A DNA stretch of 64,000 bases, taken from positions 44,936,304-45,000,303 of the forward strand of contig OZ034971.1 in NCBI GenBank assembly GCA_964030785.1, in the 5' to 3' direction. Origin of the DNA: Siderastrea siderea. Its lineage: Eukaryota; Cnidaria; Anthozoa; Scleractinia; Rhizangiidae. Position 1 is the first letter of the stretch, and each line of letters starts with the position of its first letter. The notes under the pieces were generated by a model, which was not told the origin of the DNA, ran no database searches, and saw nothing but the letters and a program-made list of their open reading frames with translations. The translations under genes and the position numbers were made by a program. Of this stretch, positions 1-53,934 are shown piece after piece.

Positions 1-320
1 GACCGTTTTGGTCTGAACTAGGGTGAGGATTGTGCACTCTGATATGGGATCTGGGATGGTTCTTACAAGAAGCTATCTTTTTATTAATTTTCTCCTCCAA
101 AGAACTGAGGTTTGATTAACGTTGAGAATTTGAAGCCCTTCTCAACTGTTTATGCAAACAAAATAGGCTTAAGGTCTGGTCTGATATAGGGTATCAAATT
201 TTGGGTCAGGTCTGAAATAGGGTAGGGAAATCACATATTTTGGTCTGTAATAGGATAAGGGTTTCCAGAAGCGTGCCACACACCCCCACCCAAATCTTCA
301 GGAAGTACCCCCCCCCGGGG
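1..320. mobile_element. TIR element with GGTCTGAAATAGGGTA repeats, left end off the window
   Basis: This is the right part of a dispersed element. The unit GGTCTGAAATAGGG and its variants recur several times. The segment ends in a C-run and CCCGGGG at about 320. The full-length relative at 32837-33265 has a G-rich left end facing this C-rich right end, as expected for terminal inverted repeats. No transposase is encoded, so it is non-autonomous. It was present before the segmental duplication. Confidence 0.6.
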
Positions 321-480
321 CAGGAAAGAAGGGATGGGAAGTGGGATTCCCCAGGTGGCAGGAAGCAAGAGAAACAGGAAAAATTGCAAAACATGGCATA
401 ATATGTGGCAACTGAAAAAGGGAAAAGAGGAAGGAGCCAACAAAAACTGGTCGAGAGGTATGAGCACGAGAAGTTTGGAC
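321..480. repeat. G/A-rich repeat related to the element at 8380-8617
   Basis: The stretch with GGGATTCC, AGGTGGC and GGAAGC motifs resembles, with many changes, the interior of the short G-rich inverted-repeat element at 8380-8617. The duplicate lies at about 33266-33425. Boundaries are unclear because no clean target duplication was found here. Confidence 0.4.
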
Positions 481-727
481 CCCTTGTACCCCACAATTCC
501 ACTGATGCCTTTCGTTTTTGAGTGAGAGTGGGGATTGGCGACCTTGCTAATTGAGAAAACAGAAAAATGAAATGCATATACATTTTGAATGATGTTTTCT
601 TGGATTAAAAATATCAAATCCACTTTAAATAAATTTTCTAAAACATCACAATACCAGGAATTTATGTTGCAACAGAAACTTATCACAGAGGACGTCCGGT
701 GAGGATAACATTTACAATCACTAGCTA

Positions 728-1021
728 CAGGGTTTGTACGGGTCCTAGAAATCCTGGAAAGTACTTGAATTTTATTCTGGCATTTTCCAGGACTGGAAAG
801 TCCTGGAAAACTAAAATTCATGCAGGTCCTGGAAAGTCCTGAAAATCTATAAACTCTTGTAATAAAGTTTTCTTAAAAACAACTGTCTACAGTATTATTT
901 TTGGATTTCTATTTCGTAAGGGTTTATTGCTTCAGTAATTGTGCATTTGGAAGAGCTGGAAAGCCTATCGAGTCCCGGAAAAGTCCTGGAAAATTGATTC
1001 TGAAAAAGGGTACAAACCCTG
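728..1021. mobile_element. MITE, CAGGGTTTGTAC termini, TCCTGGAAA-rich
   Basis: The element begins CAGGGTTTGTAC and ends with its reverse complement GTACAAACCCTG. It is about 294 bp long and is flanked by TA on each side. The interior is built of repeated GTCCTGGAAA units in both orientations near the ends. No coding capacity is present. The orthologous copy at 33676-33969 shows that insertion preceded the segmental duplication. Long open frames reading through it are repeat translations, not genes. Confidence 0.75.
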
Positions 1022-2229
1022 TAACACAAATTAACACCCCAGACTTGCTCCACTCTTGTCACTATAAATACTGTAATATAAAAATTAACTCCATGAATCA
1101 CAATGATATGGCTGTGTAAAAATAACACAGAGAAAGACATGTGTCAGAGTAGCACAGTGGTGCCCACTGTATCAGAAATCTAAATCAATGCCAGAGGAGG
1201 TTGCCATTTTGATTTTGAGTATGAGGAATCAGGCTTGCATGAGCGAAACATCGAACCAATGCCACCAGTTTGAATGGGAGGTCTGCAGCCTAGTAACCTT
1301 TGGAAACATTTGTGAACTCTGGTAAATAAGTTCTCAGCACAAGATCAGAAGCTCTTAAAAATCTCAGAACTCTATCAGTGATCCCAGACCTCACACTAGC
1401 TAAATGGCTGGTATCTAAGTAAAGACACCAAACAGCGCATTGGCACGAGGGCTACTTGAGAAGGTTGTATTTGCAGGTTTAAGGTTTCTTTCAGTTAAGA
1501 ACTCAGGGGTCCTGTTAAAAACTGTCACGATTAAAACCATAGCTTATAATGACCCTAGCCCACGTAGCAGGGATACAAGTTATATATAGTGCACAAGCTT
1601 TCAGGAACTTACACAGTGTATCTTTAACTTTTTCTCCCACTGAGGAAGCAGAAGAAAAAATTAACCCTTTATGCCCTGATATAGGAATGCATATTCTCCT
1701 TACTGTTCTCCATACATTTCTTATGAAACTAGTAAGGAGAATTTGTCTAAATATCAAGACATCTTATCCTTGGTGATCACTTTCTTTATTCTTATGACTT
1801 GAATGTTTGAACAAGTAGTGACGATGTTAAGAGAAATTTCATTTTCATCACTGTTAGGGCTTACCCAAGGGTTAATGACCAGTTAAATCAGCACATTTTT
1901 TTTTCAAAAATATTCTATTTCACAATTATGTCCAATTCAACAAAGAAATATGTATCTCCATGATATTAAACACATTCTTTTTTACAAATAAAGTTAATGT
2001 GGAAATTATCTATACGACAAAATATAATACTTGTTAACGAATTTTTAATACACTTGAATATATTCTTGCTTACTGTTATTAGTATCATCCACAAAATAAA
2101 ATATGTAATACCACGAAATTGGTTCCTCTTGCAGGCGACCGCCTCTCATAAGTGACGGCAACCACTCTTTGGGATGACAACTTGACATTTTGTATTGATG
2201 AGCAAATTACTCTGTTAAGCAAATTGTGT
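1022..2229. other. Intergenic, no gene seen
   Basis: No coding sequence or RNA gene is recognised. The stretch is present in copy B at 33970-35520. Copy B carries an extra hairpin MITE (34952-35064) and about 240 bp of additional repeat around 35160-35400 that are absent here. Confidence 0.5.
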
Positions 2230-2235
2230 TGTTTT

Positions 2236-2410
2236 AGAAAATATCCATACTCTTACCACAGGGTTTTTTTTGGTTTGAACCCCCCATTCCTCCAGAAATT
2301 CCACTTTAGGCTCATACTTTCCTTTAAAAATTTTGGTCTTTAAGACCCCCCTCCCTCTCGAAATTTCCATCGTACCTCCGCGGTGGGGGTATGGATATTT
2401 TCTGCAACCA
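2236..2410. mobile_element. Short MITE, AGAAAATATCCATAC termini
   Basis: AGAAAATATCCATAC at about 2236 is mirrored by GTATGGATATTTTCT near 2389-2405. The 175-bp unit has T/C-rich subterminal tracts and no coding capacity. It is shared with copy B at about 35520-35692, so it predates the duplication. The superfamily cannot be assigned, because no clear target duplication was found. Confidence 0.6.
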
Positions 2411-3923
2411 CACATTACTTGACACGTGGTCAACTCTCACGTAAGTGATAGCCGATCTACCAATAAACTAATGCAATAAAGAGTTCTAAGATTTAAACCA
2501 GTCCTTATCAGTTCTCATTATTTTCTGCCAGAGGACATTAGATGCCAGAAGCATGGGATTAAGAGCTACAGTATCAATGGAACACATTCCAAACACGTTG
2601 ATAGGTAAGGCATAAAGCAAACTGTTTCTGATTTGCCGATCAACCCTGAATGTCTTTGGCTGTGTCATGTTGCAAGGTTAAAAAAAATTAAGCTTCTGAA
2701 ATTTAGCAATCAAAATTTAGACCCCATGTGGTATGAACTCAAGTAAGCACGTCTGTCCCCCTGCCATAGGCTACCACCTAGGCTGGAGAATTGGTGATTA
2801 CTTACAGGAGGTTCAACTGTATTATTCAAAAACATCTTAGGGCCAATTGGGACAGGATAATTTTTGCTTACAACTGTTATATGCAACTTGCTCACATCAT
2901 GTGTCTAGCACGAATCATGTCATCTAAATCAGGCGAACAACATCCTCACAACAGTTGCACACAACATGAAAAATGTTGTAGGACTTTGAAACATGTTTTA
3001 AAACCCCGTGACAGTCACAGCCACAATCAAAATGTTACAATGATGAGTTATTAAAGATCTTTGCCTGATGCAATCAGCGCTTGCTACAGAAGTCGCATGC
3101 AACAGTCATAAGCAATATTCGTACCATCTAGGTCAGCCCTTAGAAATCTGAATCATTTCTGACCAAAAAGCATGAAGATTCTCAGTGGAGATTAATAAGG
3201 TCCACAGAGAATACATGAAATAATGTACAGTTAATCTGTTCACTCTATGGGCAATACACATTTCTTGTTTCATAACAAAACAACAATTAAAAACTAAATT
3301 TCATGATTACCATGACAAACACTTAGTTACACCCAATTTCAGATTAATGATAATTACCTTCTTCTTCAAACAAGAAAATTAAATTGGGAAGACTCTTCTC
3401 CCACCTATTTTCACTTTAGTCTAGTACACACCTCAAGTATTTTCAGGTAAAAATCTACACCATTTTTCAAACCAAAATGACAAAAATAAAATGTTTATAC
3501 TATTTCAAACCCAAACAGCAAAATTCAATATATCCCATGTCATGTTTAAATGACAAATTTGATCTTGAACAATCTACATAAATTAATAATATATATTTGA
3601 AATCAAATAAAATTTCTTGGTAAACTTGCTTTACTGGTTTTCCATCCATTAATTCCTTTTTGAAATGCATTTGATTATTTCAAAATCAAAATGACAAGTC
3701 AAAGATCAAAGGAAGGGAGATAGGGAGGGGGACCACCCTGGTCCTCTCCCACCAGGCCCACCACTGATAAGGGAGTTCCTCACATGGACACACCCCACCA
3801 CCCAACCTGGTTCTTGGTCAAGGTGTGGGTTTCTCAAATGTCCCCAAAACATTTCTTGGTGCTTAGAACATTACATAATGTGTAAAATCAACAGGAATTT
3901 TTAAAGGTAACTTCAACTACTAA

Positions 3924-4552
3924 GGCCCTATTTATATGGTCTCAGGAACCCGAGACAGCCCCTCCCTCCCCCCCCCCCCATTTACATGAGGATCACCAAT
4001 TTGTCTTGGGGAGGCAGGACAACTCAGGGGGGGGGATGTCTCACCTTAGCAGGTAGGCTGTAATAACAGGGAATGTCAACTTGGACAGATGAAATAAGCC
4101 CCCCTCCCTCCATTAAGCCACCGTTTCTAATACACTCCTCCCCTTAGTGAGGCCTTAGCCAGCCCCGGTATTAATAGAGGCTAACCCTGGCAGGTGGGAC
4201 AACTTTTTTGCATTTTAACACTTTGTCTCACTTACCCGGGATGTTTTTTGCATGCCATGCGTCACCTAACGTCTGGTGTTTGGTTTAAAAACAACCAATT
4301 TAGCAAAATATACATGAAAGAAACGTTATTTTAAAAACAGAGCCTACAGTGAACAAATCAACCAAAAATTTTTAATGAAGAAGGTGTTCTGAGGTCATCA
4401 GAGGAACATCAAAGTAAGATTTTGGAATAACTAAGTAGGGTTAACTTTGACTTGGTTAGTAGGGCCAAACTTGTCATGATATAGACGCTCCGTAAAGTTG
4501 TTTTGGGGGGTTAGGGGTTGTCTCGGGTACCCAAGACCAGATAAATGAGGCC
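3924..4552. mobile_element. PIF/Harbinger-type MITE, GGCC termini, TAA target site
   Basis: The ends form an inverted repeat of about 40 bp starting GGCCCTATTTAT and ending ATAAATGAGGCC, flanked by TAA on both sides. GGCC termini with a 3-bp TWA target duplication are the known signature of PIF/Harbinger elements. It is 629 bp long and lacks a transposase. It sits in the 3' flank of transporter gene 1. Its counterpart at 37213-37878 shows that it predates the duplication. Confidence 0.7.
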
Positions 4553-4793
4553 TAATAACATGAGGTAAAAGAACCTACAACTTGCACTTTCTTGTATCTT
4601 CCCTTTAAGTTTATAAAATTTGTGAGGAAGGTGGGACCAAACAAAAAGTCTCCGTAATTTTATAAAACAGCTTGGGCTTGGTCTCTACGAAAACCTACTG
4701 CCACTAAAAAGAAGCCAATTTTTTTTTTAATTCTCTTACAAGAAATGTCTTTGGAGCTTTGAGAAACACACATCTGGATTGGTATCTGGAGAA

Positions 4794-6245
4794 TTAGATA
4801 CCACTTACAGCCCTCCCCAGCTCTTTACTGGTAAACACAATACCAAGGATCCCACAAACAAAACCAAAAACTATAACAATAACCCTCACCACAATGTTGT
4901 ACCATTTGAGCTCTTTCCATTTCAGGACAATGTGGAAAATGCAAGGGAACATAAAGCAGAGGCAGGTACCTGTAAAGCTGCCCACCAGACCCATAACTAA
5001 GCCAAAATGGGGAACCACAATGGCCAGAAACAGGCCAAAAGATAAGATGAGAGGACGAGACAATATGATCCAAAACCAGTGATATTTTGTGTCCTTCTTA
5101 AGGTGGGGAAAATAGGGCAACACCTTTAGGTCAAATGTCTCCAGCACAATGTAGCTAACAATAGGAAATGCTGTGAACACATTGGTTGCAACCAAAACAT
5201 TGGCTAAAATGTAGAACACTGGACTGGTCTTGAGATTAACAGTTATGGCTTGCTGTGTGCCCGCTCCAAATCTCAGGACTGGAAGAAGACCAAAGGCAAC
5301 TTTGACAATTGCTGCCACAAGGAATGCAACATTCATCATCATCGGGTACTGCTCTGGGTACATCATGCTCCCCTCAACACCTGGAAACACGGCATGGGCC
5401 GTGTAGCTGAACACAATGACACCAAAGCCAATGGGAAACTTACTGATGTCAAATGGAGGGACGTTCTCAATTCTCATGTCCCTGTACTGGGTTATAGAGT
5501 AGATAATAATTGTAAGAATCGATGACATCAAGGCAAACACTGAAATCATGCTGATCCAAGCGATCACTGACACCCGACGAAGAAAGAATCCAGGCAGTGC
5601 GATGCAGGCACAGATAGCAGACCAGGTGTAGATGTCAAAGGGTGCAAACTTGTGGAGAATGTCATTGAATATAGTTCCCAAGAGAACGATGTAAGTTACC
5701 ACACCACCAAACATCTCACAGAACTGCACCACGCTCACAATCTGGTTGCCCCACCGGGGCCATACGGCTTCCCCGACCTCCGGGTAGTTCACCCGGACCC
5801 GCTTCTTCTTGCCCGTGCGCTTGGATGTTTCATATAAACACTCTATCAACAGCTTCCCGGTGTAGCAGCACAAAAAGGCCACGAGGGCATTGGCAGCCAC
5901 TGCCGCCCATCCCCCCATCCGCACGGCATACGGCACCCCGAGAATCCCAGTTCCCTGGATGAGGTTCGTTACGTTCCAACCTGCAAGAAACGCCGAAGCG
6001 CGTCGGTCGTCTGAAGGCTTCTCCAGAAGCGAGACAGTCATGGTGGCAGACTTCAGCTTCTTTAAACTCTGAGAGAAACCACCTCGCGATAGACTTGTCC
6101 CCATAATCCCTGAAGACGACCTAGCCCTGGATCCGCTCGCTTTTCCCAAAAGATGTGTTTGTTCGTCCAGTGCCACAACAGTTGGCTGATCATTTACCGG
6201 TTGGCGGCTGTTCAAAGCGATGTCTTCACTGGCTGGGGTCTCCAT
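4794..6245 (-). CDS. VIAAT/SLC32-like vesicular amino-acid transporter, gene 1 (copy A, intact)
   Basis: This 483-residue protein of the amino acid/auxin permease superfamily is closest in pattern to vesicular inhibitory amino-acid transporters, which load GABA or glycine into vesicles using the proton gradient. A cytosolic N-tail (about 1-88) carries an acidic dileucine EQTHLL (28-33) that could direct vesicle or endolysosome sorting. The family core GWNVTNLIQG starts at 89. CCYTGKLLI lies near 126-134, VFSYTAHAVFPG near 278-289 and VPHFGLVMGL at 411-420. About eleven hydrophobic segments follow the tail. The reading frame is full family length in one exon. The ATG has a good context (AAAATGG). 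No polyadenylation signal was identified. The copy B counterpart at 38119-39540 is broken, so this is the only intact gene 1. The exact substrate is unknown. Confidence 0.9.
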   Translation of the reverse strand: METPASEDIALNSRQPVNDQPTVVALDEQTHLLGKASGSRARSSSGIMGTSLSRGGFSQSLKKLKSATMTVSLLEKPSDDRRASAFLAGWNVTNLIQGTGILGVPYAVRMGGWAAVAANALVAFLCCYTGKLLIECLYETSKRTGKKKRVRVNYPEVGEAVWPRWGNQIVSVVQFCEMFGGVVTYIVLLGTIFNDILHKFAPFDIYTWSAICACIALPGFFLRRVSVIAWISMISVFALMSSILTIIIYSITQYRDMRIENVPPFDISKFPIGFGVIVFSYTAHAVFPGVEGSMMYPEQYPMMMNVAFLVAAIVKVAFGLLPVLRFGAGTQQAITVNLKTSPVFYILANVLVATNVFTAFPIVSYIVLETFDLKVLPYFPHLKKDTKYHWFWIILSRPLILSFGLFLAIVVPHFGLVMGLVGSFTGTCLCFMFPCIFHIVLKWKELKWYNIVVRVIVIVFGFVCGILGIVFTSKELGRAVSGI

Positions 6246-7319
6246 TTTGGGATAAACGGATTTTGTTCTTTGATCGAAACAGTTCCTGCCAAATTATTCG
6301 CAGTGAAGAGCTTCGTTCGATATTAATTCCCAGACTTTCAGATAAAATAGCAAAATAGACTAGATTCGCAGCTGTAAAATCAGTGAAATCACATGTGTTG
6401 GCGTGAAGGCTTTAGAGTATTGAGTCAATAACTCAACAACCAATAAGGTTGTGGCACTGAACTTGAGTGAGTTATGAAGCAAGAGTGGCGGTGTTGTGTT
6501 ACACTAAAGACTCTTACGTCTCCTCGACGGCGTTGACACCGGCGTTGACAAGCCCGGCACGAAACCAAATGACCGAACTTAAACAAATAAATAAGACAGA
6601 ATTGACTTTATAATAAACATTTAACTCTATATGAGATTTTTGTTTTATTCCAAAGTTGCTCAACTAGTTGGTGATCTTTAAAATAAAATGTTTATAGCCT
6701 CGCTGTTGTCTTGCGTGACGTTACGGCATTAGTTTGTACTTTTGTTTGCGGTAACCTTAAAAGTTACCCGTTTTATTCTATCAGACATTCCTATTATTCA
6801 TTTTATAAAGTTTAAGCCTACCTTTTCATATTATGAAATGATGACGACCATCGCAGTTAATGTTATCAACTTAAGCAGCTGATAGAAGAGACCTGAAAAA
6901 AAGATCAGGCTTGAACGTACGAGACTCCCGATACCGGTGAAACGCTCCATAAAATATTTCATATTTCAGTCCGCAGTTCACGAAAATGAGCATTTCAAAT
7001 ATTAAATTTCATTGATTTTTATATTCATAATAAATCCCAGTCGTTTTTCTGCCACCCAACATGACATCAATGGATAATTCCCAGCTCAGTCGAGTGGACC
7101 GCAACAATGAAAGAGACGAAGCGAAGTACAGTCTGTACTGTCAGACCGGGAGTCAGAGTTGAACAACTTCAAACCGTCTCCCCACAGCATTCCTTCTGCT
7201 GCTTAACTTCCAGTCGTGTTAAATACTTACAATAACTAAAGGGAGATTGACTATAGGCATTCTGAAAAGCGCTTTCTATTTCGTATTTAAACTTGAAAAC
7301 TTGAATAACTATTCATTCA
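6246..7319. other. 5' flank of gene 1, no gene seen
   Basis: This upstream region of gene 1 is well conserved in copy B (39541-40650), even though that gene 1 is broken. It presumably holds the gene 1 promoter, but no convincing TATA box or other element can be fixed on the minus strand. No open frame of interest is present. Confidence 0.4.
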
Positions 7320-7340
7320 CTCTCTTTGGGCATGTAGTAA

Positions 7341-8149
7341 GGGACTGTTCGTTATTTATGCCTAAGGGGGGGTCGGTGATTTTCAACCAATTCAGGCACA
7401 TGAAAAATTTACCCCTCCCCGAAAGTGGGTATTTTAAAAAATTACCCCCCGTTTTTTGTGACAGTTTCAAAATTTTACCCCCCCCCCCCTCCCCTACCCT
7501 CAGGACGCGACGTGCTTACAATTGTGAAATTGCGTACAACATGTGTTCTGGCCGCGTGCCGATAACCCAAAATCCAGTGCAAGGTCATTTGTGATCGTAC
7601 ATTATGGGAGCACTCAGCAAGGAAAGTAAATTTGCAGCGCCGGTATTAACGTGGGCCTAAAGAAGATCCGATTCGAGAGAGAAATCAACGGTGTGAAAGT
7701 TTGTAAGAAGTTCATTGCAAGGCTTGAACCAGTTTTGCTGTTTGAGGATGGCTATATACGCACGCACTACAATACTGTAAACTACAACTGGCCCCGGCAA
7801 ATGACACATGTGTGGGTTTTGCTAATATTAAATGTCAGATTGCATGTATTTTAAAGGGATTTAATAAGTTATATATTGGAACCTTTAAATAACGCTACTC
7901 ACGTTTTCTTGGCTTTTCAAACTATAAAGACCAGGTTCTTTGGAAATAGAATTCTCGAAACAGAGATCAACTTTTTAAATGTCTGTAAAACGGCTACACA
8001 AGTGTTGAAACAACAGTTTCTAAAAGTTTACCCCCCTTATTTCTACTGTATTAAAAAAAAACACCCCCCCCCTTTTTCATTGATTTTGAAAATTTTACCC
8101 CCCCACTCTAAACACCGGCCCCCCCTTAGGCATAAATAAGGAACAGTCC
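7341..8149. mobile_element. Nested PIF/Harbinger-like MITE, GGGACTGTTC termini
   Basis: The terminal inverted repeat of about 30 bp starts GGGACTGTTC and runs through TTATTTATGCCTAAGG. The flanks are TAA on both sides (7338-7340 and 8150-8152). Removing the 809-bp element and one TAA restores the left tip of the host element so that it matches the right tip. It has C-run-rich subterminal zones and no transposase. Confidence 0.75.
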
Positions 8150-8152
8150 CTA

Positions 8153-8236
8153 ATTCCTGGAACACCGGAACACGGAACATCGGAACACCCCGGAACACCC
8201 GGAACAGTGTGAAAAACCCGGAACACCCCGGAACAC
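8153..8236. repeat. GGAACACC subterminal tandem repeat, left arm
   Basis: Repeats of GGAACACC(C)(C) and variants lie just inside the left tip of the 4.9-kb element. They are the inverted counterpart of the TTCCGGGTG array at about 12008-12250. Such arrays inside MULE termini could be transposase-binding sites, but that is an inference. Confidence 0.6.
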
Positions 8237-8379
8237 AATAAACACAACAATCACATAGCAATGGAGGTAACAGATTTTACACTCAAATAATTTAACTCAG
8301 CTTTTTATGCGCTCTACAGCCCTCTGCCCCCCATCCCCCCCCCCCTCACAAAAAAAGAAAGAAATGGAATCGTCTAATA

Positions 8380-8617
8380 GTGGGGGGGGGACAGGGGGGG
8401 CGGGAGGTGTACGGAAGGCGGGAGAAGAGGGGGCGGGAAGCGGGATTCCCAAGGTGGCGGGAAGCGGGAGAAAAAGGGAAGAATTACGCAACATTGCGCA
8501 ATATTTTGCAATCGAAAAAATGCAAAGCGGCGGGAGCCAAAAAATACAGGGCGGGAACCGGGATTAAAGGGTATGGGAAGCGGGAGGTTTAAACCCCCCT
8601 GTCCCCCCCCCCCCCAC
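8380..8617. mobile_element. Small G-rich TIR element nested in the left arm
   Basis: The inverted tips start GTGGGGGGGG(G)ACAGGGGGG. CTAATA is repeated at 8374-8379 and 8618-8623. The right arm of the host element (around 11770-11780) has the unoccupied version, so the insertion is well defined at 238 bp. The interior resembles the G/A-rich repeat at 321-480. There is no coding capacity. Confidence 0.7.
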
Positions 8618-9228
8618 CTAATACGACAAAAAGTGAAAAGCTGTCCGTGAATTCACAATTCCATTCAGGGCCATCGGGCATGATTTTGCATGGGTTGGTG
8701 CTAGGTTTAAAAATATCAAGTTGTTGAAGTCCACATGCACATTTCCTACAATACATTTTGAGAGTCATTTAACCCCTCACTCACCAATAAGACGGACTTT
8801 CGTGGCCCGTTGGGGGATGCGGACGGATTCTCCCCCTCCCCTTCCATCCCCTCGCCACACACACACACATTGCCTACGGCCCTGCCGTTGAGAATTAAAT
8901 GATATTAAACGTCAGATTAAGCAATTTTTTTTTTTCGTGTTTCCAAATTCCCCATTGCAACTAAAGACCTCTACGTGCCTTCTGCTATTTGTTTTCTCAT
9001 TCATGCCCACTGAAAGCAGTGACAGTCCACCTCGCCTGGCACAGCCTCGCTCTAAAGCATAATAAAAGCCGAGGCCTTGTCACCGGAGGTCCTTTTCTCC
9101 ATTCAACAGTGAATGTGCTCAATCTCCTTCTTCAGCCTTAAAAGAAAGTTTGGATCCATAGTAGAGCTAAAAGACAACGGTAAATAAGGTTTAAGGTCTA
9201 TTCGCTATACATGTTCCATACTGCGTCT

Positions 9229-9552: not shown

Positions 9553-9612
9553 GAATTTATGGCAGTTGCACGCTCCGGGCTCCTGACATGATCCATTTCC
9601 CGGTTTCATTAA

Positions 9613-11467: not shown

Positions 11468-11470
<3 letters not shown>

Positions 11471-11539
<69 letters not shown>
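11471..11539. repeat. (TG)n microsatellite in the right arm
   Basis: An almost pure TG run of about 68 bp lies in the right arm. The mirrored position in the left arm (about 8858-8870) has only about a dozen bases of CA, so the array has expanded in one arm or contracted in the other. It generates spurious His/Thr and Cys/Val open frames. Confidence 0.9.
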
Positions 11540-43328: not shown

Positions 43329-44804
43329 TTATTTGCTTACATTTACTAACTCAATACCAGTAAATACTGCTCCAAGAATGCCACAGGCAATTCCAAACAG
43401 TGTGATGAGAACTCTACACACTACCTGGTACCAGGCCAGTTTCTTCCACTTCAGCTTCAGATGAAAAACACAAGGAAATATAAAACACATGCTGGTGCCA
43501 GTTAAGCTGCCTAACAACCCGATGACAAGGCCAAAATGAGGGACGGTGATGGCCAGGAAGACTCCAAAGGTAAAGAGCAATGGCCGCGTAAGGAGCAACC
43601 AGAACCAGTGAAAGCTGGACTCTTTGGCCAAGTGAGGAAAGTAGGGGAGCATTTTTGTATCCCAGGTCTCCAAAACAACAAACATGACCAGTGGGAAGGC
43701 AAGGACAACATTGGAGATGACAAAGGTGTTTGACAGGATGTAAAAGACAGGGCTGCTTTTAAGGTTGATGGTTATTGCCTGGTTTCCCTCTTGTCCATAT
43801 CGGAAAATGGCCATCAAACCCAAAACCAATTTTGTAATAGTTGAGTTTGCAAATGCAATGTTTAACATCATGGGGTACTGTTCGGGATGTTGCATGCTTG
43901 CTTCCACCCCTGGGAACACAGCATGAGCAGTGAAGCTGAACACGATGATGCCGAAACCAATGAGGAAAGAATTCAACTGGAACCCGGGCATGTTGTCAAT
44001 GCTCATTTGCTGATACTGGGTGATGCAGTAGATTATGATGGTCAGCACACCAGAGAACAGCGCAAAAACTGAAATCATGCTGATCCAGGCAATCACTGAT
44101 ACGCGGGTGATGAAGATTCCAGGAAGGACGAAACACGCGACAATCACTGACCATTCATAGACGTCCATGGAAGTCAAGTTATGAAAGAGGTCAAGGAAGA
44201 TAGATGCCAGTAGGACGATGTAAGCGACAGCTATCCCAGACATCTCACAGACTTGGACCACGCTGACTATCTTATTCCCCCATCGGGGCCAAACAGCTTC
44301 GCCAACATCCGGGTAGTTGACCCTGACCCTCTTTCGCTGGCCAGTGCGCTTGGACTCCTCATAGAGACAATCAATCAACAATTTTCCAGTGTAACAACAA
44401 AGAAAGCCACATACGAAGATCGAACCGACCGCGGCCCATCCTCCAAGTTTAACAGCGTAGGGTACTCCCAAAATCCCAGTGCCTTGTATAAGATTGGTAA
44501 CATTCCACCCAGCAAGGAACGCGTTGGCGCGCCTATCATCTGACGGCCTTTCAATCAGGGACATGGTCATCGTTGCGGAACGCAATTTCATCAAACTTCG
44601 CGATAAATTCATTCTCGAGAGGCTTACCCCTTGAAAGCTATTGCCAGGTTCCGATTCGCCATGAATCAATGGCGCCCTTTCTCCCAGCGGTACAACAGTT
44701 GGCTTGGATTCGGTTGTTCCTAATGCAATCTCCTCGCGATCAGCGGAACGTGTGTTCACTGTATTTCGCGAGGGCGCAGCGAGCAAAGCAGTGTTTTCAG
44801 CCAT
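43329..44804 (-). CDS. VIAAT/SLC32-like vesicular amino-acid transporter, gene 2 (copy B, intact)
   Basis: The protein has 491 residues in a single exon and is the duplicate of 15518-16996. Differences are mostly conservative (Val/Ile, Leu/Met) or lie in the N-tail, where TTDLSKP reads TTESKP. The two dileucine motifs (ENTALL at 3-8 and ERAPLI near 42-47), the GWNVTN core, FSFTAHAVFPG and VPHFGLV are all kept. Preservation of both copies under visible divergence argues that both are under selection. The expected role is proton-coupled vesicular amino-acid uptake; the substrate is not determined by sequence alone. Confidence 0.9.
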   Translation of the reverse strand: MAENTALLAAPSRNTVNTRSADREEIALGTTESKPTVVPLGERAPLIHGESEPGNSFQGVSLSRMNLSRSLMKLRSATMTMSLIERPSDDRRANAFLAGWNVTNLIQGTGILGVPYAVKLGGWAAVGSIFVCGFLCCYTGKLLIDCLYEESKRTGQRKRVRVNYPDVGEAVWPRWGNKIVSVVQVCEMSGIAVAYIVLLASIFLDLFHNLTSMDVYEWSVIVACFVLPGIFITRVSVIAWISMISVFALFSGVLTIIIYCITQYQQMSIDNMPGFQLNSFLIGFGIIVFSFTAHAVFPGVEASMQHPEQYPMMLNIAFANSTITKLVLGLMAIFRYGQEGNQAITINLKSSPVFYILSNTFVISNVVLAFPLVMFVVLETWDTKMLPYFPHLAKESSFHWFWLLLTRPLLFTFGVFLAITVPHFGLVIGLLGSLTGTSMCFIFPCVFHLKLKWKKLAWYQVVCRVLITLFGIACGILGAVFTGIELVNVSK

Positions 44805-46592
44805 TGTGATTTGTTTCCTCTTTTACCCTTTCGATTTGTTCAGTTTCCCACCTGCAGATTTGAGTAAACACAAAATCGGTTCAACACGTAAACATGTACT
44901 TGAAATAAGTTGACCTCGGCTGTTCAAACGCAAATGTTTTGGGATGTAAATCTAGAACGCATTCGTTTCTTTCTCCACGTGTTATTGTTTTGCCACGGGA
45001 CACCTCACGAATTAGCCTATCACAGACTTCATTCTTCGCTTGTTTACCAACTCCCAGTGATCCACTTAGATTTGTAGTACAATCAAGTCCCGTCGCTTCT
45101 TTTGTTTGAGAATTGTAGTAGAGTACTAGTACAGTCTGAAAGTTCATGCGTCCTTTACAGTAACCTGTGTGGAGAGATCACCTGTCCAGGGGAAATTAGA
45201 GATGCCTGCACGTAGGCGACCTTTTCATCAACTTTCGCCAGGTTCCCCTTTTTCGTCACGCGACACAGCAGCGAGTGTCACGCCGGGCATTTTTTAATTC
45301 CCAGCTCGCGTAATTGTATTTTTGTGCATGTGTGTATTTTGTAGTCCTCAGCTTGTACATTTTTAAGTTCATAGCCTGCGCATAGTTTACACTTAAAACT
45401 TCAAAATTATGAAAGCTAGGGATTCCTGCTTTTTTTTTTTTTTTATCAAAGCCACCAGCCAGAGTCTTAGCCCTTTAGATGTTTAGGAAATACCCGGAAA
45501 ATATTGATACACATCTTTGTATGGGATAAGAAATGCTGCAAGATACTGAATAGGGGGTCTCTGGCTTAGCAGACTTTGGGATTGAGGCTGGGTTTGGAAA
45601 CTTGTTTGCTAAACCAAGTCCTCTGTTCTTCATTTCAACAACCAAAAACAAAGCATGCTGGCAATTTACAATATATTTGTTGTCAAATATTCATATTATT
45701 TATGGTACTCGTACACAATGCAACACTTAATTAATACAGTCACACAGTGACAGCTGATGAAATAGTGGATGCCTTTTCAAAAAAAATACACATCACCATC
45801 AAAATATTTGTATCAGCCCACAGTTATGCTTCACAACTTAGCTTCACTTTGCAAAAGGTTATTACTTTGTTGCATAGTAACAATGATGCATACTCAAATG
45901 CATCATTACAAACCATGGCGGTCCTGTTTTCCTTTCGCGTATCAGTTCAGCAAAAGAAAAGATAAGTTGACATCCACAAACAGGAAGAGAAACTGTTGCT
46001 ATCACTTCTTTGATTGAAAAGAAAATCACAATACCATGGCATGCCATGTGGAAAACCCTGGAACCCGTAACACTGGTGTCCCCAAGGCTAATTCCTCGCT
46101 ATTTGTAGAGCACGCCCTTGTGCAGTGATTGGCTCTGGCTAGGCTGTGGCAAAGCCTAGAGCCCATAGCACAAGATCCCCGGACAATCAACAACCAAGTC
46201 AAAGTTCTAGACCACAACTCATTCACATACGAAATTATGAAAATACAAATCACACTGGTGATACAACAAGCACACCATTCATCATTAATTTACTTTACTC
46301 AGGGTGGCAAAGGGTGTTTTTGTGAGCTAACTATGAATTGCCAGTATTTTAACAAGAGAACTGTGAATAAGTATCCTTTGTTGACATATGATCTACTTCA
46401 TAGCTTGATTTTCCATAATTATTACCAGTGGCAGAAGAATTTAGTGTTGAATTTGAAGTCAACAATGATTTGTCAGTGATTAACTAGACTTACTTGACAG
46501 GACCGTTGTTTTGCTTTTTATCAAATGCAATCCACCCCCACCCCACCCCCTTACCACCCTATTAATTTACAAAAATATACTGGACCCCACAT
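44805..46592. other. Intergenic between genes 2 and 3 (copy B), no gene seen
   Basis: This is collinear with copy A. The empty site of the CAGGGTCTGG element (single AAAGCA) is near 45650. No coding sequence is recognised. Confidence 0.45.
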
Positions 46593-46775
46593 AGCCTGCA
46601 TAGCAGGCACTTGAGTAATTCTTGGACACACAAGTAATTTGAAGAACACAGGATGCACATGAGCGAGGAGTTGGTCAGGCAAGAGGGGCCCTGACGTGTG
46701 TGACGAACTTCTCGTGTGTGGCCTATATTATTACTTATGTGCGCAGAAATTACTTTAGTGCCTCCTACGCAGGCT
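46593..46775. mobile_element. 183-bp MITE, AGCCTGC termini (copy B)
   Basis: This is the duplicate of 19801-19983, with the same inverted tips. Confidence 0.5.
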
Positions 46776-46880
46776 ATACCCTATAATGATCATATAATTT
46801 CCTTAAAAAACTTGTTAAACCTTGCTATTGGCATTTACGGTTGAACAGTACAAGTTTATCAGTTCTCAGATATATACTCT

Positions 46881-48329
46881 CTATTCATTCTGAAAAGAAA
46901 ATGCTCTTGCAAGCTCCCTTCCAGAGAAAAACAAACCACTTGCACCGCACACCAAACCAAACACTATCACCACTATCTTTGTCAAAATGCTATACCAGGG
47001 AGTCTTGCTCCACTTGAGAATCAGGTGAAACACACAGGGGAAAACAAAAGAAAGACATGTACCAGTGAAGCTTCCGACAAATCCCATCAGCAAACCAAAG
47101 TGTGGTACAATGACTGCCAGGAATAAAGCAAATGTAAGAAGCATGACTCGTGTCAGGAGAACCCAGAACCAGTGGTACTTGCTTTCTTCGCCAAGATGGG
47201 GAAAATATGGTAAAACCTTGGCATCCCAGGTTTCTAACACAACAAACATACAAAGGGGGAAGGCCAGGAATACGTTGGTGACAACCAGGGCTGTGGCAAC
47301 GATGTTGAACACTGGACTTATACTCATGTTGACCGTGATGACTTGTTCAGTCTGGTAGCCAAACCTGAGAACGGACAACAAACCGAGAAGAACCTTGACA
47401 ACTGCAGCCAGAGCAAATGCACTGTTCATCATCATGGGAAACTGCTTTGGCTCTTTCATGCTGCCTTCAACGCCAGGAAACACAGCATGGGCACAGTAGC
47501 TGAACACAATGATTCCAAATCCAATAGGAAACTTCTGAATATCAAAAGGAGGAATGTTAGAGAGGGACATGTCACGGTATTCGGTGATGCAGTAGATGAT
47601 GATGGTAGCGATACCGGACAGCAAAGCAAACACGGAGATCATGCTGATCCACGCAATGACTGACACGCGCGTGATGAAGATTCCAGGTAACGCAACATAT
47701 GCGCAGACGACTGCCCATTGATAGATATCAAGAGGGGTAAGATCGTTCAAGATATCGTTGAATACGGTGGCGAGGAGAACAATATACATGATCACACCAC
47801 CATACATCTCGCACACTTGGACCACGCTTACGATTCGATTCCCCCATCCTGGCCACGCCGCTTCTCCGACCTCTGGGTAGTTAACGTAGGCGCGCTTGAT
47901 CTGCCTAGTACGTTTGGATTGCACGTACAGACAGTCGACCAGTAGCTTGCCGGTGTAACAGCATATTGCAGCCACTACAACAATGATAGCCACAGAGGCC
48001 CAACCTCCCATCATAACTGCATACGGCACCCCAAGGATACCTGTACCCTGGATAAGATTGGTCACATTCCAGCCAGCGAGCCAAGCTGACGCGCGTCGGT
48101 CGTCCGAAGGCTTTTCCAGGATGGAAACAGTCAGTGTAGCGCTTCGGAGCTTTCGCATGCTCTCTGCAAAGCTTGATTTCCTCAAGGGGGACGTATCGTC
48201 TGGAGCAAACAGCAAAGGCGAATCTTCGTCCACAGTCTGCAGAGAAGGTTTGTGTAATGTGATCGCTTCGCCATCTTGTACAGGGGACTTACTGCTGGAC
48301 AGAGCTGAAGCCGCAGAGCCACTGTCCAT
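46881..48329 (-). CDS. VIAAT/SLC32-like vesicular amino-acid transporter, gene 3 (copy B, intact)
   Basis: This 482-residue, single-exon protein is the only intact gene 3. The N-tail has EDSPLL (35-40). The GWNVTNLIQG core starts at 86, CCYTGKLLVDCLY at about 123, VFSYCAHAVFPG lies at 275-286, and a VPHFGLLMGFVGSFTGT block precedes the last two membrane segments. The start has AAAATGG context, about 840 bp from the oppositely oriented gene 4. The site where copy A carries its transposon (codon 355, TNVFLA) is uninterrupted here. The family role is vesicular loading of GABA, glycine or related amino acids. A lysosomal or synaptic-vesicle location is plausible from the dileucine motif but unproven. 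Confidence 0.9.
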   Translation of the reverse strand: MDSGSAASALSSSKSPVQDGEAITLHKPSLQTVDEDSPLLFAPDDTSPLRKSSFAESMRKLRSATLTVSILEKPSDDRRASAWLAGWNVTNLIQGTGILGVPYAVMMGGWASVAIIVVVAAICCYTGKLLVDCLYVQSKRTRQIKRAYVNYPEVGEAAWPGWGNRIVSVVQVCEMYGGVIMYIVLLATVFNDILNDLTPLDIYQWAVVCAYVALPGIFITRVSVIAWISMISVFALLSGIATIIIYCITEYRDMSLSNIPPFDIQKFPIGFGIIVFSYCAHAVFPGVEGSMKEPKQFPMMMNSAFALAAVVKVLLGLLSVLRFGYQTEQVITVNMSISPVFNIVATALVVTNVFLAFPLCMFVVLETWDAKVLPYFPHLGEESKYHWFWVLLTRVMLLTFALFLAVIVPHFGLLMGFVGSFTGTCLSFVFPCVFHLILKWSKTPWYSILTKIVVIVFGLVCGASGLFFSGRELARAFSFQNE

Positions 48330-49170
48330 TTTTGCAGCTCTCTTTCAAGATTTAATACTGATTCAAACTTTTTCCAAGCGGACAACTTCTTCCTATTCTA
48401 AAAAGTTCGACGAGGAGTCTATAAAACAGCTTTCTAATACAAGGCTATCGCCGCTGTTTTTAGAGGTCCCAATACAAGATCGTCGAAGTCTGCATCAAGA
48501 GACACATGTTATCTCTGACGTGACTCCGTGTTGTGTATTTCACACTCCTTTTACGGTAATCGGAGATTGAAAACCGACTGTTTCAACCAATTATATTTGA
48601 GGCAAAAGACTTCGCCATCGCAAGAGCGTAACAAGTCCGGTCCGGCTGTGCAAAGATTTGTAAACGTCCGACTGTGAACAATAGAAACCTAACCGCTTCT
48701 TATCACAACTTCTTGGCAAGTAGGCTCTTTGTAACAAGTTTATTGCAGGAACAGTGAAAGGTCAGTTAAGGTCAAAATCACTTCGTAAATAGCACAGATT
48801 GATTTGCATATCCCAAAACGAGATTATCTTACACGAACATTACACGTAACACGCTCCTTCGGTGTTTAGACAACTCTTCCCTTTTATGGAAATCGAAGGC
48901 GGGATTTCTATAAATTGAACCAATCATGTTTGAGGCACCAGGCAACAGCGTGACAGAAGCGTGACAGTAAAGTACGCTTGTAAGCACTTTCGCGACCTTA
49001 CGGACAACGTGTTTGTAGGAACAATTGTTTAATTGCATGCGGATTCTTATTCTTTTACCCAGGGTTTATCTAAACACGACAGATTCCCGCTGAGTTGTCT
49101 ACTTGTGCTCCACTGGTGTTTCAAGTTCCGTGCGTTTCGATTTTTCCGCGATTTTTAGACTGTTGCCCCG
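48330..49170. promoter_or_regulatory. Divergent promoter region between intact genes 3 and 4 (copy B)
   Basis: This 841-bp spacer lies between head-to-head start codons. TATAAATT at 48909-48916 lies about 255 bp before the gene 4 ATG. The spacer is nearly the same as in copy A, with a few small indels (for example an extra GACAGAAGCGT repeat near 48950). It is the best candidate for a shared regulatory region of two active transporters. Confidence 0.5.
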
Positions 49171-50664
49171 ATGGCGAACGAAGGTGACCTTGAAAACGAT
49201 TTGCAGCTTGCTTTGTCTCAATCACTGACCCCAAGAGGCAGTGATAATGAAACAAAGAAAGAAGCAAGCTACGAACTCCGTATAGTGGACAAGAAAACGG
49301 TGTCACAGTCCACAGAAAGGTCTCCACTGTTAGGCGTCGATCCCGAAGAGCCGGTATCGCCTACATCAGCGTGGAATACTAACTTCAAACGTTTCCGTTC
49401 GTTCACCGTGTCTCACTTCACCATTTCCCTGGTAGAAAAGGAGTGTTTGGACAGACAAGCCTCCGCCATCTTGGCTGGCTGGAACGTGACGAATCTCATA
49501 CAAGGCATGGGCATCCTTGGTGTTCCCTATGCCGTTAGGGAGGGAGGAGTGGCTGCGGTGATTTGTATCTTTATCGTGGCATTGTTCTGTGACGTCACAG
49601 GAATACTCCTGGTTGATTGTTTGTATGAAATCTCACCTCGCAGCAAACTGAGAAAAAGAGTGCGTGAGTCATATCCTGACATTGGAGATGCCGTATGGCC
49701 GGGAGTTGGAGGCAAGGTGGTTAGTGTTGTTCAGACAATAGAACTCTATGCAGCAGCAATGTTGTATCTTATCCTTCTAACGACCATGTTTGCCCAGATA
49801 ACAGAAAAGTATGTACCACTCAGTCTGAATGAATGGGCTGTCATCTGTGCCGTAGCTGTTCTCCCAAGTGTCTTCATCAAAAGATTGTCTCTAATTGCAT
49901 GGATGAGCATGTTAGCTGTATTTTCCCTGATGTCTGCACTGATCATCATGATGGCGTATTGCATTCTTCAGAGCGACCAGTGGACGTGGAACAATATACC
50001 ATCCTTCCACATCAGTACATTTCCTGTTGGCTTTGGTATTGTAACGTTTAGTTACTGCGCTCATGCTGTGTTTCCCGGCATCGAAGGCAGCATGAAAGAA
50101 CCAAAAAACTTCAACAAAATGATGCATGTTTCATTTTTCATCTCAGCTATTATGAAAACACTGTTTGGCCTATTTGCTGTACTAACATTTGGCATTTTAA
50201 CAGACCAAGTGTTTACTGTAAACTTGGCAGAAAATGTAGCATTTAACACTGCAGCAACTGTCCTGGTTGCTATCAATGTGTTTTTCTCTTTTCCTCTCCC
50301 ACTCTTTGTTGTGGTAGAAACATTTGACAACAATCTTGGCCCCTACTTTCCACATTTGGCAAAAGGAACAAAATATCATTGGTATTGGCTGCTACTAACA
50401 AGAACAATTCTTGTAACCTTCGCACTTTTCATTGCTCTTGTTGTTCCACATTTTGGCCTTCTAATGGGTTTTGTCGGCAGTTTTACTGGAACGTGTCTGT
50501 CTTTTGGGTTCCCGTGCATAGCCCACCTCAAACTACGATGGAAGTATCTCCGCTGGTATCACATCACAGGCGAGATTGTTCTTATCGTCTTCGGAGTTCT
50601 TGCAGGAGGACTTGGTTTGGTGTATTCAGGAAAAGCTCTCGTGGATTCTTTTCGCACATTTTAG
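49171..50664 (+). CDS. VIAAT/SLC32-like vesicular amino-acid transporter, gene 4 (copy B, intact)
   Basis: This 497-residue, single-exon protein is the most diverged of the four paralogs. It has VEKECLDRQASAI where the others have EKPSDDRRA. The N-tail has ERSPLL (49-54), the core GWNVTNLIQG starts at 103, and CAHAVFPGIEGSM and VPHFGLLMGFVGSFTGT are present. About eleven hydrophobic segments span 106 to the C-end. It is the only cassette gene on the plus strand. Copy A retains a 370-bp-deleted version. The start context is CCGATGG, and a splice-acceptor-like TTTTTAG lies about 14 bp upstream, so a 5'-UTR intron is possible. The substrate is unknown. Confidence 0.9.
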   Translation: MANEGDLENDLQLALSQSLTPRGSDNETKKEASYELRIVDKKTVSQSTERSPLLGVDPEEPVSPTSAWNTNFKRFRSFTVSHFTISLVEKECLDRQASAILAGWNVTNLIQGMGILGVPYAVREGGVAAVICIFIVALFCDVTGILLVDCLYEISPRSKLRKRVRESYPDIGDAVWPGVGGKVVSVVQTIELYAAAMLYLILLTTMFAQITEKYVPLSLNEWAVICAVAVLPSVFIKRLSLIAWMSMLAVFSLMSALIIMMAYCILQSDQWTWNNIPSFHISTFPVGFGIVTFSYCAHAVFPGIEGSMKEPKNFNKMMHVSFFISAIMKTLFGLFAVLTFGILTDQVFTVNLAENVAFNTAATVLVAINVFFSFPLPLFVVVETFDNNLGPYFPHLAKGTKYHWYWLLLTRTILVTFALFIALVVPHFGLLMGFVGSFTGTCLSFGFPCIAHLKLRWKYLRWYHITGEIVLIVFGVLAGGLGLVYSGKALVDSFRTF

Positions 50665-52939
50665 GATGTATAACATAATTTATATACACAAACGTTGAAG
50701 GTAGACTAAAAGGCAATTTTGCTTTGCATTTGAAATGTGCAAACTCTAAGGTTAAAACATGACCATTTAAAACATGACCATTGGTGGCTTTTTCTGCTTC
50801 TCTCACACCAACAGGCTAAATGTTCAGATTAGTGGATCTCAATCCATTTTGTTTGTTTCTTTTTTTCAATGAATGTCGAGTGTTTCAGAATTCTTATTGG
50901 CAGCAGTGAGAAGAGGCCCTTCTTGAGGTAAATTCCAACAAGCCACGCAGCATTGAGTCAGCAAAAAAATCAAATGAAATGACAACGAACAACAAGGTTG
51001 CTGTTGTGAAATCACAACTGGGACAGAAATGAGCAAGATCACTAGATGACATTCTGACAGAAGCACGCAAACTTTCTAAAACTTGGCAGATGCCATGTTT
51101 TAAAATTGAGATGATGGATGTGCATACACTCCCTGACAGGGCCCAGTGTAAAATCCAGTTGTTAGTTGGGTTGTGAACATCGGAGTTTGCATGCTAACCC
51201 CTTAAGCCTCAATAATCAACATGCTTGTTCTCCTCTCTGTTGTTCTGATAGTTCTTGTGGTACTTGTTGGGAGAGTTTGATTAAACAACAATACATTCCA
51301 TGTTTGGTGATCATTTCCATTATATTTCTTAAGTGCTTTTAAGGACGGTGCCTCTGTTACTGTGCATGCGTTCTGCGCATCTCGGGATATTCGGGTTTCT
51401 TAAGGAATTTGCCCCCTAATGCACAATGTTTTTACGCGGTTTATGACTATGTGGGAAAAGCAGATCTTAGCAAGGGCTATCAGAATCCAAAAAGAAAATT
51501 GGGGGTAACCACACATTTTTCAGAGATAATCGAGCTTAAAATTGGAAAGAAATTGCCATACATTCTTTGTATCTTAACGCTTTTTTAGAATTATGGTTGC
51601 TTAATTATCTCTGAAAAATGCGCGGTTACCCACATTTTTCTTTTTGGATTCCAATAACCCTTGCTAAGATCTACTTTTTCCCCATAGTCATAACCTTTGC
51701 AAAAATACTTCTGTATTAGGAGGCACCGTCTTTAAATATGTTTGATCATGTAGTGATTTTGTGAGGAGAAAGTCAATGCTTGCAGATTATTGGGGCTTTC
51801 AGGGTTTTTAACACAAAATGAATGTTTCCTTGCCCCATTCAACTACAGTTCAATCCTAACAACTCAAAATGCCAGGGAACCGCAGCTGTTCCAGACATTT
51901 GTTAAAAACTGAAGCAGGGGAACTGCTCTCCACTCTTCCTTTTTTTATTGTATCCATTTCACAGAAAATTGTTTTTCCAAACCGCATACCTAGGCAACTA
52001 TTTATTGCAATGCTTCATTTTGCAGTTTAGTAGGAAAGGGTTGTATCTTGTTAGTTTCTAGCAGATTTTCAAAGATTTTTCTGAAAGCAAAGAGCATAGT
52101 CTGCTAACAGCTTTCCCTGGACAAGCACCCTGGAAGGCCTGTTTGCAGGCTTCTAGGTAAATAATGTTCTGAAAAAGAACAAGATTAAATAACAAATTTG
52201 TTGCTGTGGAATAACCTTGTCCTGTCACGCTGTCAGGGTTGTCCCTAACAGCCGGCTGCTGGCAGAATTAACCAGCTACTTGGGTTGTTTGTGCCGGCTA
52301 CTTTTGTGATATATATGTTTTTTAAAGACAAATTATTAGTTCATTACGTTGAGTTCTGAGAATTACAAGTAGAAAACCGCTGAAGCCATGAGTTTATAAA
52401 AATAAAATTGAAAAGTTATGATTACTTTTGGGACTGTTATTATTGAAAATTTGTGCTTAGAATCAAGGAAATTCCGTTTCTGGGGACTTAAAACGTAAAA
52501 ATTTCCTGGCAGGGGCATGCCTCCAGACCTCCCGGGAAGGGATCACCTTTGGTGCTCGATAATCACTTACCAGCTACTTAGAAATTCTTGCCAGCTACTT
52601 GAAAAGTTGTGGACAGCCCTGGCTGTGGCAGGCACAAACTTTCACTAGCTTCAAATGTCGCTGGGAAGGGTGTCTGATAATTTTGGATAATTTTAGTCAT
52701 TTTAATACACAGCATTCATGGAAAGCAGGCATACTTTATTCTAGTAGTTATAGTATTTGTGGTTAGAAATTATACCATTAGTTTAAATAGCAAAGGTGAT
52801 AAATAGTTGTAAATTGATATGAATTGGAGTATGCTATTTGTTTAATTAATTTATAATCATTTGTAAATTAGGCCTGATGTTTTAACCATGTTTAAATTAA
52901 GTTAAAGGTAAAAAAAAACACTCCTTTCATGAGAAGAAA
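50665..52939. other. 3' flank of gene 4 (copy B), no gene seen
   Basis: This is collinear with copy A 25090-28140 minus the GTCCGG element (empty site at about 52635). No coding sequence or RNA gene is recognised. Confidence 0.45.
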
Positions 52940-53345
52940 TTAATAATGATAATAATAATAATTTAATAACTTATATATCGCTATTTACATACACTGATCA
53001 ATAGCGCTTTACAGAAATAATGAAAATAAAATTATGAAGAAATGTATATATGCTATATTACATATGTACAAAAATACCAGCTACAATTTGATAAAAACTA
53101 AAAACAACATAAGAAAAATATATTAAGATTATTAATAAATAGAAAATACATTGAAATGCTGACCTAAATAAAACGTCTTAAGTTTACTTTTAAAAACACC
53201 AAGTGTCGTGGGAACACGCAGGTCAGCTGGCAGGCTGTTCCATAAAGGCGGGGCAGTGAAGTTCATAGAGAGCTGCCAGTGTGAGTATTTAGGTGTGTCC
53301 ATAATAAGTCTAGCAGCATGTGAAAATCGCCAACTCATTTGCCGC
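52940..53345 (-). mobile_element. CR1/L2-like LINE 3' remnant (copy B)
   Basis: The minus-strand frame contains RQMSWRFSHAARLIMDTP, then APPLWNSLPADLRVPTTLGVFKSKLKTFYL. Compared with copy A it retains an upstream portion but has lost about 220 bp in the middle. The AAT microsatellite marks the 3' end. Confidence 0.7.
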
Positions 53346-53506
53346 AATAAACAGTTACCTTAACATGCTTGGATGCATCCAGGAAGTGGTAAAACTGAAA
53401 ATACTTAGGGAAACTCAACATTTTTTACTCCTTGTCTTGGTCCTCATGACATAGGACATGCACAATTGTCATGAAAAACATAGTGTTCGCAACTGCCTAA
53501 AAATAA

Positions 53507-53645
53507 TAATAGTAGTAGTAGTAGTAGTAATAGTGGTAGTGGTAGTGGTAGTGGTAATGGTAGTGGTAGTGGTAGTGGTAGTGGTAGTGGTAGTGGTAGT
53601 GGTAGTGGTAGTGGTAGTGGTAGTAGTAGTAGTAGTAGTAGTAGC
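53507..53645. repeat. (TAGTGG)n minisatellite, expanded
   Basis: Nearly pure TAG and TAGTGG units run for about 140 bp, longer and more uniform than the copy A array (28711-28810). Predicted poly-Val or poly-Thr proteins are artefacts of this array. Confidence 0.9.
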
Positions 53646-53934
53646 TTTTGGGCTGTACTTTGTTTTCATCTGTGAGTAATGGAGTCCCTATGAAACAAAA
53701 GCAAACGAAGCAAAAGGCAGGTAATGTATATAGCTGCGTGAGGTGGCTCAAAGGTTTTAGTCTGTGGATATGGGATGAGAGTGCTATTATTGTCAAGCTT
53801 CAGACCAATACTTTCCTGTGGTGCTTTTTGTCTGTAGGGGCTTTTGAGTCTGAGAGAAATTTTCCCGGATTATTACTTGAATAGAAGCCATTGACTAATA
53901 CCATGACATTGTTCCTATTTCCGATATAATATTT

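Follow-up and report, generated by a model that had tools for sequence, protein, structure and literature searches.

What does it mean when two neighbouring copies of a gene cluster have each lost different members, so that every gene survives at least once? The question is raised by a stretch of 64,000 nucleotides from the stony coral Siderastrea siderea (C6:44936304–45000303, here called the window; genome of 831 Mb in 402 contigs), which carries a cluster of amino-acid-transporter genes in two adjacent copies, A and B. Each copy originally held four transporter genes of the Pfam family PF01490, here numbered 1–4, each of them one single-exon open frame. An earlier reading, made from the sequence alone, proposed a duplication followed by the loss of three of the eight gene copies, and took the complementary pattern of survival as a sign that all four paralogs are individually needed. 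Our analysis supports the duplication and the losses. The locus is probably a tandem duplication of an old four-gene cluster that then underwent ordinary birth-and-death, and no selection for four genes needed in complementary copies is required.

Structure of the duplicated unit

Self-comparison of the window revealed collinear direct repeats whose identity ranges from 87 to 98% block by block; repeats this long and this alike are far beyond chance. Self-BLAST of the window extended by 30 kb in both directions (negative positions lie to the left of the window) placed a unit of approximately 31 kb there twice, head to tail, as adjacent collinear copies with distinct flanks. Same-orientation, adjacent, collinear copies with one novel join are what defines a tandem segmental duplication. 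Alignment of A with B, a check proposed by the sequence-only reading, thus confirmed collinear duplicated units, and the limits first given for them (1–29098 and 32937–53933) cover most of the duplication while being too narrow. The approximately 3.8 kb taken as a spacer (29100–32936) was rejected as such, since from 29444 onwards it already belongs to copy B and includes a transposon, with 29444–30769 forming the true beginning of that copy; at the other end, copy B continues past the insertion at 53935–59405 to 59710. There is no N anywhere in the window, the join included. Recombination between flanking repeats was rejected as the cause, because the sequences left of A, at the join and right of B share no repeat. 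An old cluster of four amino-acid-transporter genes would have been duplicated once, as a single head-to-tail unit, through a join formed without long homology. Within each unit the order and strand of the genes are 1(−), 2(−), 3(−) and 4(+), with genes 3 and 4 head to head, 806 bp apart in A and 841 bp apart in B.

Family and age of the cluster

The proteins A1, B2, B3 and B4 match Pfam Aa_trans (PF01490) with 218–229 bits against a cut-off of 25.6, over the whole membrane core; an NCBIfam scan returned no family for the four proteins scanned. The predicted structure of A2 (mean predicted local distance difference test score (pLDDT) 81.6) matches the folds of LAX3 and SLC38A9 (E 6e-11 to 8e-11; template modelling (TM) score 0.63–0.69 by query length). 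Fold matches were led by plant LAX3, AUX1 and SLC38A9, and PAT1 was not among the 50 listed; the best PDB sequence match was PAT1 (SLC36A1), with E 3.7e-24 with a profile. SLC36A1/PAT1 and SLC38A9 share the Aa_trans core of the coral proteins, and the solved fold relatives are only distant (14–19% identity in the nine best fold matches). Records named vesicular inhibitory amino acid transporter-like from Montipora, Exaiptasia, Nematostella and Stylophora likewise belong to PF01490, with similar length and a homologous membrane core. Unlike them, the coral genes are four paralogs in one cluster, and the link to SLC32 is one of record names only; no solved SLC32 chain was among the PDB search matches. 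A passage of PMC10584924 names one SLC32A1 gene in Acropora and links it to growth. We found no paper on this transporter cluster in corals in the parts of the literature covered, and the passages of PMC13044578 among them hold nothing on it.

We built a midpoint-rooted tree of 137 proteins, consisting of the returns of three public-protein searches (120 of 164, 120 of 196 and 120 of 142 matches listed) with 390–560 residues and five proteins from the window. Genes 1–4 each fell in their own clade with other anthozoan proteins (22, 15, 24 and 22 tips, respectively; support 0.986–1.0), the related named records coming from Oculina, Desmophyllum, Montipora, Stylophora, Exaiptasia and Nematostella. 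By this placement, the four genes are old, separate groups common to anthozoans. Equal longest contigs suggest that groups 1 and 3 lie together in Desmophyllum and groups 3 and 4 in Montipora capricornis, as do relatives of 3 and 4 in Nematostella. Because the four clades are separate and common to other anthozoans, with members apparently together elsewhere, the cluster would be older than the duplication. In the tree, A2 and B2 group with each other and with two near-identical public proteins only. Among the 40 places in the genome that were scored, of 998 candidates, none but the two copies reaches 96% identity to gene-2 DNA, all others having at most 82%; the genome searches matched C1 to C14 at chromosome-scale positions, C16 having only 14,864 bases.

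Further family members lie at C6:45005894–45007141, approximately 5.6 kb to the right of the window, and at C254:15752–17005, with 36–38% identity to gene 2. These two are probably another pair of paralogs. Their identity is 89.9% over 1.7 kb and patchy in the flanks, which makes the C254 gene more likely a paralog than an allele, and we rejected the idea that it is a leftover haplotig.

Lesions and constraint

Alignment and open frames confirmed that A1 and A2 are intact, that A3 is split by a transposon and that A4 lacks 370 bp, while B2, B3 and B4 are open. For B1, the 5-bp deletion, stop and 40-bp deletion listed by the sequence-only reading are all present, and a 15-bp in-frame repeat has to be added to them. 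The stop in B1 is a change from TCA to TAA at codon 226 (computations took the end of B1 as 39539, one base short of the ATG). The target duplication of the A3 transposon is 9–10 bp long with one mismatch, and since one base now differs, the transposon may not be brand new. From its own ATG, A4 runs for 66 codons to a stop. Its deletion corresponds to residues 37–160 in B4 numbering and would remove both first membrane helices predicted in the A2 model (96–122 and 124–147 of that model). In LeuT-type folds the first membrane helices matter for substrate binding.

Noncoding divergence between A and B is 3.3% (Kimura two-parameter (K2P), 16,628 sites). Synonymous divergence (dS) and the ratio of non-synonymous to synonymous divergence (dN/dS) were computed for each gene pair by the Nei–Gojobori method, as the earlier reading had advised, and dN/dS ranged from 0.14 to 0.54 across genes: dS 0.034 and dN/dS 0.50 for gene 1; 0.124 and 0.14 for gene 2; 0.038 and 0.54 for the 5′ part and 0.024 and 0.28 for the 3′ part of gene 3; and 0.062 and 0.17 for the 3′ part of gene 4. 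Polarised against 16, 9, 10 and 11 orthologs chosen from the match lists for genes 1–4, derived amino-acid changes numbered 12 in B1 versus 4 in A1, 14 in B2 versus 5 in A2, 15 in A3 versus 1 in B3 and 7 in A4 versus 1 in B4. At sites invariant among the orthologs the counts were 7 and 0, 4 and 0, 8 and 1, and 2 and 0, in the same order.

Neutral expectations were drawn from two yardsticks, the gene's own dS and the unit-wide rate. Purifying selection on a single copy per gene was supported, with derived changes far below the neutral expectation in A1 (4 versus 18), A2 (5 versus 19–70), B3 (1 versus 18–19) and B4 (1 versus 13–24). The changes in B1 (12 observed, 18 expected) and A3 (15 versus 18–19) fit neutrality (P 0.08–0.27). 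For A4, 7 changes were observed against 24 expected from its own dS (P 6e-5) or 13 from the unit-wide rate (P 0.065); for B2, 14 against 70 from its own dS or 19 from the unit-wide rate (P 0.17). A4 probably lost constraint later than B1 and A3. The course of events would then be that the spare copies B1 and A3 changed at an approximately neutral rate and were broken, that A4 stayed constrained for longer and was broken later, that purifying selection maintained A1, A2, B3 and B4, and that gene 2 is still double.

Complementary survival and chance

When three losses fall at random among eight copies, every gene survives in 32 of 56 arrangements, a chance probability of 0.57 (57%). The sequence-only reading was thus right that random loss could do this, and its suggestion that complementary survival shows all four paralogs to be needed was not borne out. 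Selection might nevertheless have preserved one copy of every gene, all four being individually needed, and two of gene 2 for dosage, in keeping with the clear constraint on the kept copies and the persistence of the four groups across anthozoans. We think this improbable: constraint on a last remaining copy is expected anyway, chance alone accounts for the pattern in over half of the arrangements, and the tree gives B2 a branch approximately three times the length of the A2 branch (0.035 versus 0.012).

The kept copies A1, A2, B3 and B4 are also the outer ones, which raises the idea of a position effect, whereby the genes need control DNA outside the unit on their own side and the inner block A3-A4-B1-(B2), cut off from it, decays. 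Fewer derived changes in the four outermost copies, and the small deletions in the 5′ region shared by A3 and A4, would fit such an effect. Five of 16 random patterns are of the outer type, however, and B2 is still open, so that we give this idea little credence. The losses of A3 and A4 may have a common cause in the head-to-head 5′ region between them and so may not be independent events. Neither the complementary nor the outer pattern calls for a special explanation. Nor need one dose suffice for genes 1, 3 and 4 but not for gene 2: that gene may be present twice simply because both copies have so far escaped loss, or because they differ from each other.

Tandem duplication followed by birth-and-death, the explanation we favour, is known from stony corals, where the available passages of Noel et al. 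2023 (PMC10236652) likewise describe groups of adjacent genes that were copied and then diverged and were lost. Unlike those groups, a whole four-gene cluster is contained here in one unit, and loss is caught in progress with the lesions visible. No case of the same pattern was found among the literature titles and abstract openings listed. The locus clearly captures a tandem duplication of several genes in the course of its resolution, the spare copies having decayed to different degrees, in a lineage for which tandem duplication is reported to be common. It also illustrates that, in a set of four genes, complementary survival is only a weak argument for need.

Several observations weigh against this explanation. 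The changes are few, and of the asymmetries within single pairs that of gene 3 alone is significant (p 0.0005), the other three being marginal (0.06–0.08 each). Silent divergence is uneven along the unit: its variance-to-mean ratio in noncoding sequence is 2.6 in 200-base and 3.1 in 400-base windows, values reached in 0 of 2000 permutations, and we rejected a single clock for the whole unit for this reason. The divergence of gene 2, 10.6% at fourfold-degenerate sites or dS 0.124, misfits a single event at the 3% level. A passage of PMC12005156, finally, disputes an outsized role for tandem copies in coral genomes, where they make up 22% of paralogs on average.

Divergence of gene 2

Gene 2 is open in both copies and has a silent divergence of 10.6–12%, versus approximately 3% for the unit. 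At fourfold-degenerate sites 24 of 227 have changed in gene 2, against 5/221, 7/233 and 11/168 in the other three genes (23/622 together), an excess with Fisher p 0.0003 versus the other genes and p 5e-7 versus noncoding sequence. With a microsatellite set aside, the strongest island of divergence spans 15437–16787 and is nearly all gene 2 (32 of 280 silent sites, versus 3.0% elsewhere); its log-likelihood gain of 19.4 compares with at most 11.5 in 60 permutations, for which the grid was coarser; a gain of 12.1 was obtained for a stretch of 100 sites at −925 to −815 as well. The 3′ flank of gene 2 is raised (39/924), the 5′ flank is low (13/850) and divergence then stays low to 19795 (21/1700). 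Either the flanks were homogenised by conversion with gene 2 spared, or the source haplotypes differed most at gene 2. This is the part of the locus that a specialist might find surprising.

The second possibility leads to a heterogeneous duplication, in which unequal exchange between haplotypes fixed two old, functionally different gene-2 alleles on one chromosome, and genes 1, 3 and 4 are passengers being lost. The position of the island, the fourfold-site divergence, highest in gene 2, and the fact that gene 2 is the sole gene kept twice, with both copies open under a dN/dS of 0.14, speak for such an event. Against it, an older duplication followed by patchy gene conversion would produce an identical map, the low 5′ flank makes the island one-sided, and the changes in B2 are compatible with neutrality at the unit-wide rate; we regard it as a doubtful alternative. 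If gene 2 is the cargo, two divergent alleles would lie on one chromosome, as in the heterogeneous gene duplications that passages of Milesi et al. 2017 (PMC6121789) discuss under Haldane's idea; unlike that case, the coral one is known from sequence alone, and gene conversion could mimic it. Were it true, this would be a natural heterogeneous duplication being trimmed to the selected gene, and gene 2, as a pair of locked-in old alleles, would be a natural example, open to testing, of Haldane's idea beyond insecticide resistance.

Long identical runs gave no sign of very recent conversion, the longest being 221 columns against a null mean of 226. A divergence peak at 28710–28809 was rejected as real, as it is a trinucleotide microsatellite; this microsatellite, at 28700–28830 and 53500–53650, raises the local A/B divergence.

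Two loci or two haplotypes

Could A and B be two haplotypes of one locus that the assembly placed in tandem? The noncoding divergence is low and uneven, as allelic divergence would be. It is also approximately twice the typical heterozygosity of corals, given as 1.07–1.96% in a passage of PMC12005156, and the join has neither an N nor an overlap usable by an assembler. Public proteins bear on the question too. Besides P0016, flagged by the search as the window's own, at least 11 public proteins among the matches listed are at least 95% identical to a window gene. At A/B-diagnostic sites P0001 is B-type at 18 of 20 (one A, one neither), P0002 A-type at 17 of 20 (two B, one neither) and P0043 B-type at 17 of 18. 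The full-length gene-4 proteins P0121 to P0125 are B-type at 7 of 8 sites each, the lone A-type site being I368M, where the window's B4 is the odd one. P0128 is B-type at 6 of 7, P0136 A-type at 5 of 5 and P0105 B-type at 8 of 11, the other three being changes found only in the window's B1. Among the matches listed, none was of A3 type. Freely recombining alleles should mix, whereas these eleven proteins sort as A or B at most diagnostic sites, which favours two loci as far as the public sequences go. The longest contigs recorded for the A2-type and B2-type public proteins differ (262,337 and 713,725 bases), something that a haplotype split would also give. On balance an assembly artefact seems unlikely.

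Attempts to calibrate allelic divergence on unplaced contigs, of which three were probed, yielded no calibration: C80 is satellite-like, C150 is a repeat found also at the end of C6, and C300 has no second copy apart from an 84-bp repeat.

The same proteins bear on the order of decay under duplication and birth-and-death. The B1-type protein P0105 has neither the stop nor the 40-bp deletion of the window's B1, and shares with it changes at ortholog-invariant sites (Y138H, R223C, L239M and T370K), to which it adds S171N, A283V, H284Y, V290I and T358A. It spans residue 110 to approximately 420 and ends in unrelated residues, so it may not be an intact gene and is uninformative about the 5-bp deletion. 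The A4-type protein P0136 carries Y193H and W271R and retains the stretch deleted in the window's A4. It stops at 325, its terminal residues are presumably sequencing adapter, and it may be a chimera with B4, as known A/B differences begin only at residue 193. With these caveats, the two proteins suggest that constraint on genes 1 and 4 was relaxed before the lesions in the window arose. The sequence-only reading had allowed that the losses could be private variants, and some of them may be: those in B1 that P0105 lacks and, less surely, the A4 deletion.

P0128, of B4 type, leaves the frame after approximately residue 372, as a broken allele or through an assembly error; even for a kept gene, then, one of the public versions is broken or misassembled.

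Other features of the unit

Table 1. Features of the duplicated transporter cluster, in window positions.
Feature	Position	Strand	Remarks
Copy A of tandem unit	1..29443, true start −2016 (C6:44934287)	+	self-BLAST with flanks
A1 (gene 1, copy A)	4794..6245	−	open, 483 aa, PF01490
4.9-kb insertion in copy A relative to B	7329..12252
A2 (gene 2, copy A)	15518..16996	−	open, 492 aa
1.0-kb transposon in copy A	17847..18861		15-bp perfect terminal inverted repeats
A3 3′ part (gene 3, copy A)	20087..20482	−
Transposon in A3	20483..22096		~1.6 kb; terminal inverted repeats; target duplication 20473–20482 / 22097–22106
A3 5′ part (gene 3, copy A)	22097..23159	−	includes second copy of target duplication
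Shared head-to-head 5′ region of A3/A4	23160..23965		without 5, 18, 11 and 1 bp found in copy B
A4 (gene 4, copy A)	23966..25089	+	370-bp deletion at 24075/24076 with loss of frame; stop at codon 67
0.85-kb transposon-like insertion in copy A	26996..27841		terminal inverted repeats
A/B junction	29443..29444		gap-free; ~0–1 bp microhomology; ends of unit without repeat
Copy B of tandem unit	29444..59710	+	self-BLAST with flanks
1.5-kb transposon in copy B	30770..32238		CTTAAG target duplication
B1 (gene 1, copy B)	38119..39540	−	broken: deletions of 5 and 40 bp, TAA at codon 226, in-frame repeat of 15 bp
B2 (gene 2, copy B)	43329..44804	−	open, 491 aa; longer branch of pair
B3 (gene 3, copy B)	46881..48329	−	open, 482 aa
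Shared head-to-head 5′ region of B3/B4	48330..49170
B4 (gene 4, copy B)	49171..50664	+	open, 497 aa; 49281–49650 is the stretch absent from A4
5.5-kb insertion in copy B relative to A	53935..59405

Repeats were found in and around the insertions. The 4.9-kb insertion in copy A has long inverted arms (8236–9123 and 11240–11909, 88–97% identity) and is foldback-like, and the 5.5-kb insertion in copy B holds a perfect 59-bp inverted repeat (57133–57191 and 57896–57954). A dispersed repeat of approximately 490 bp (87–89% identity) occurs in the insertions of both copies, at 9610–10098 and, inverted, at 58602–59084, and again to the left of the unit at −7350 to −6866. A self-complementary stretch of approximately 330 bp is present in both copies (25754–26090 and 51410–51725) and would thus be older than the duplication.

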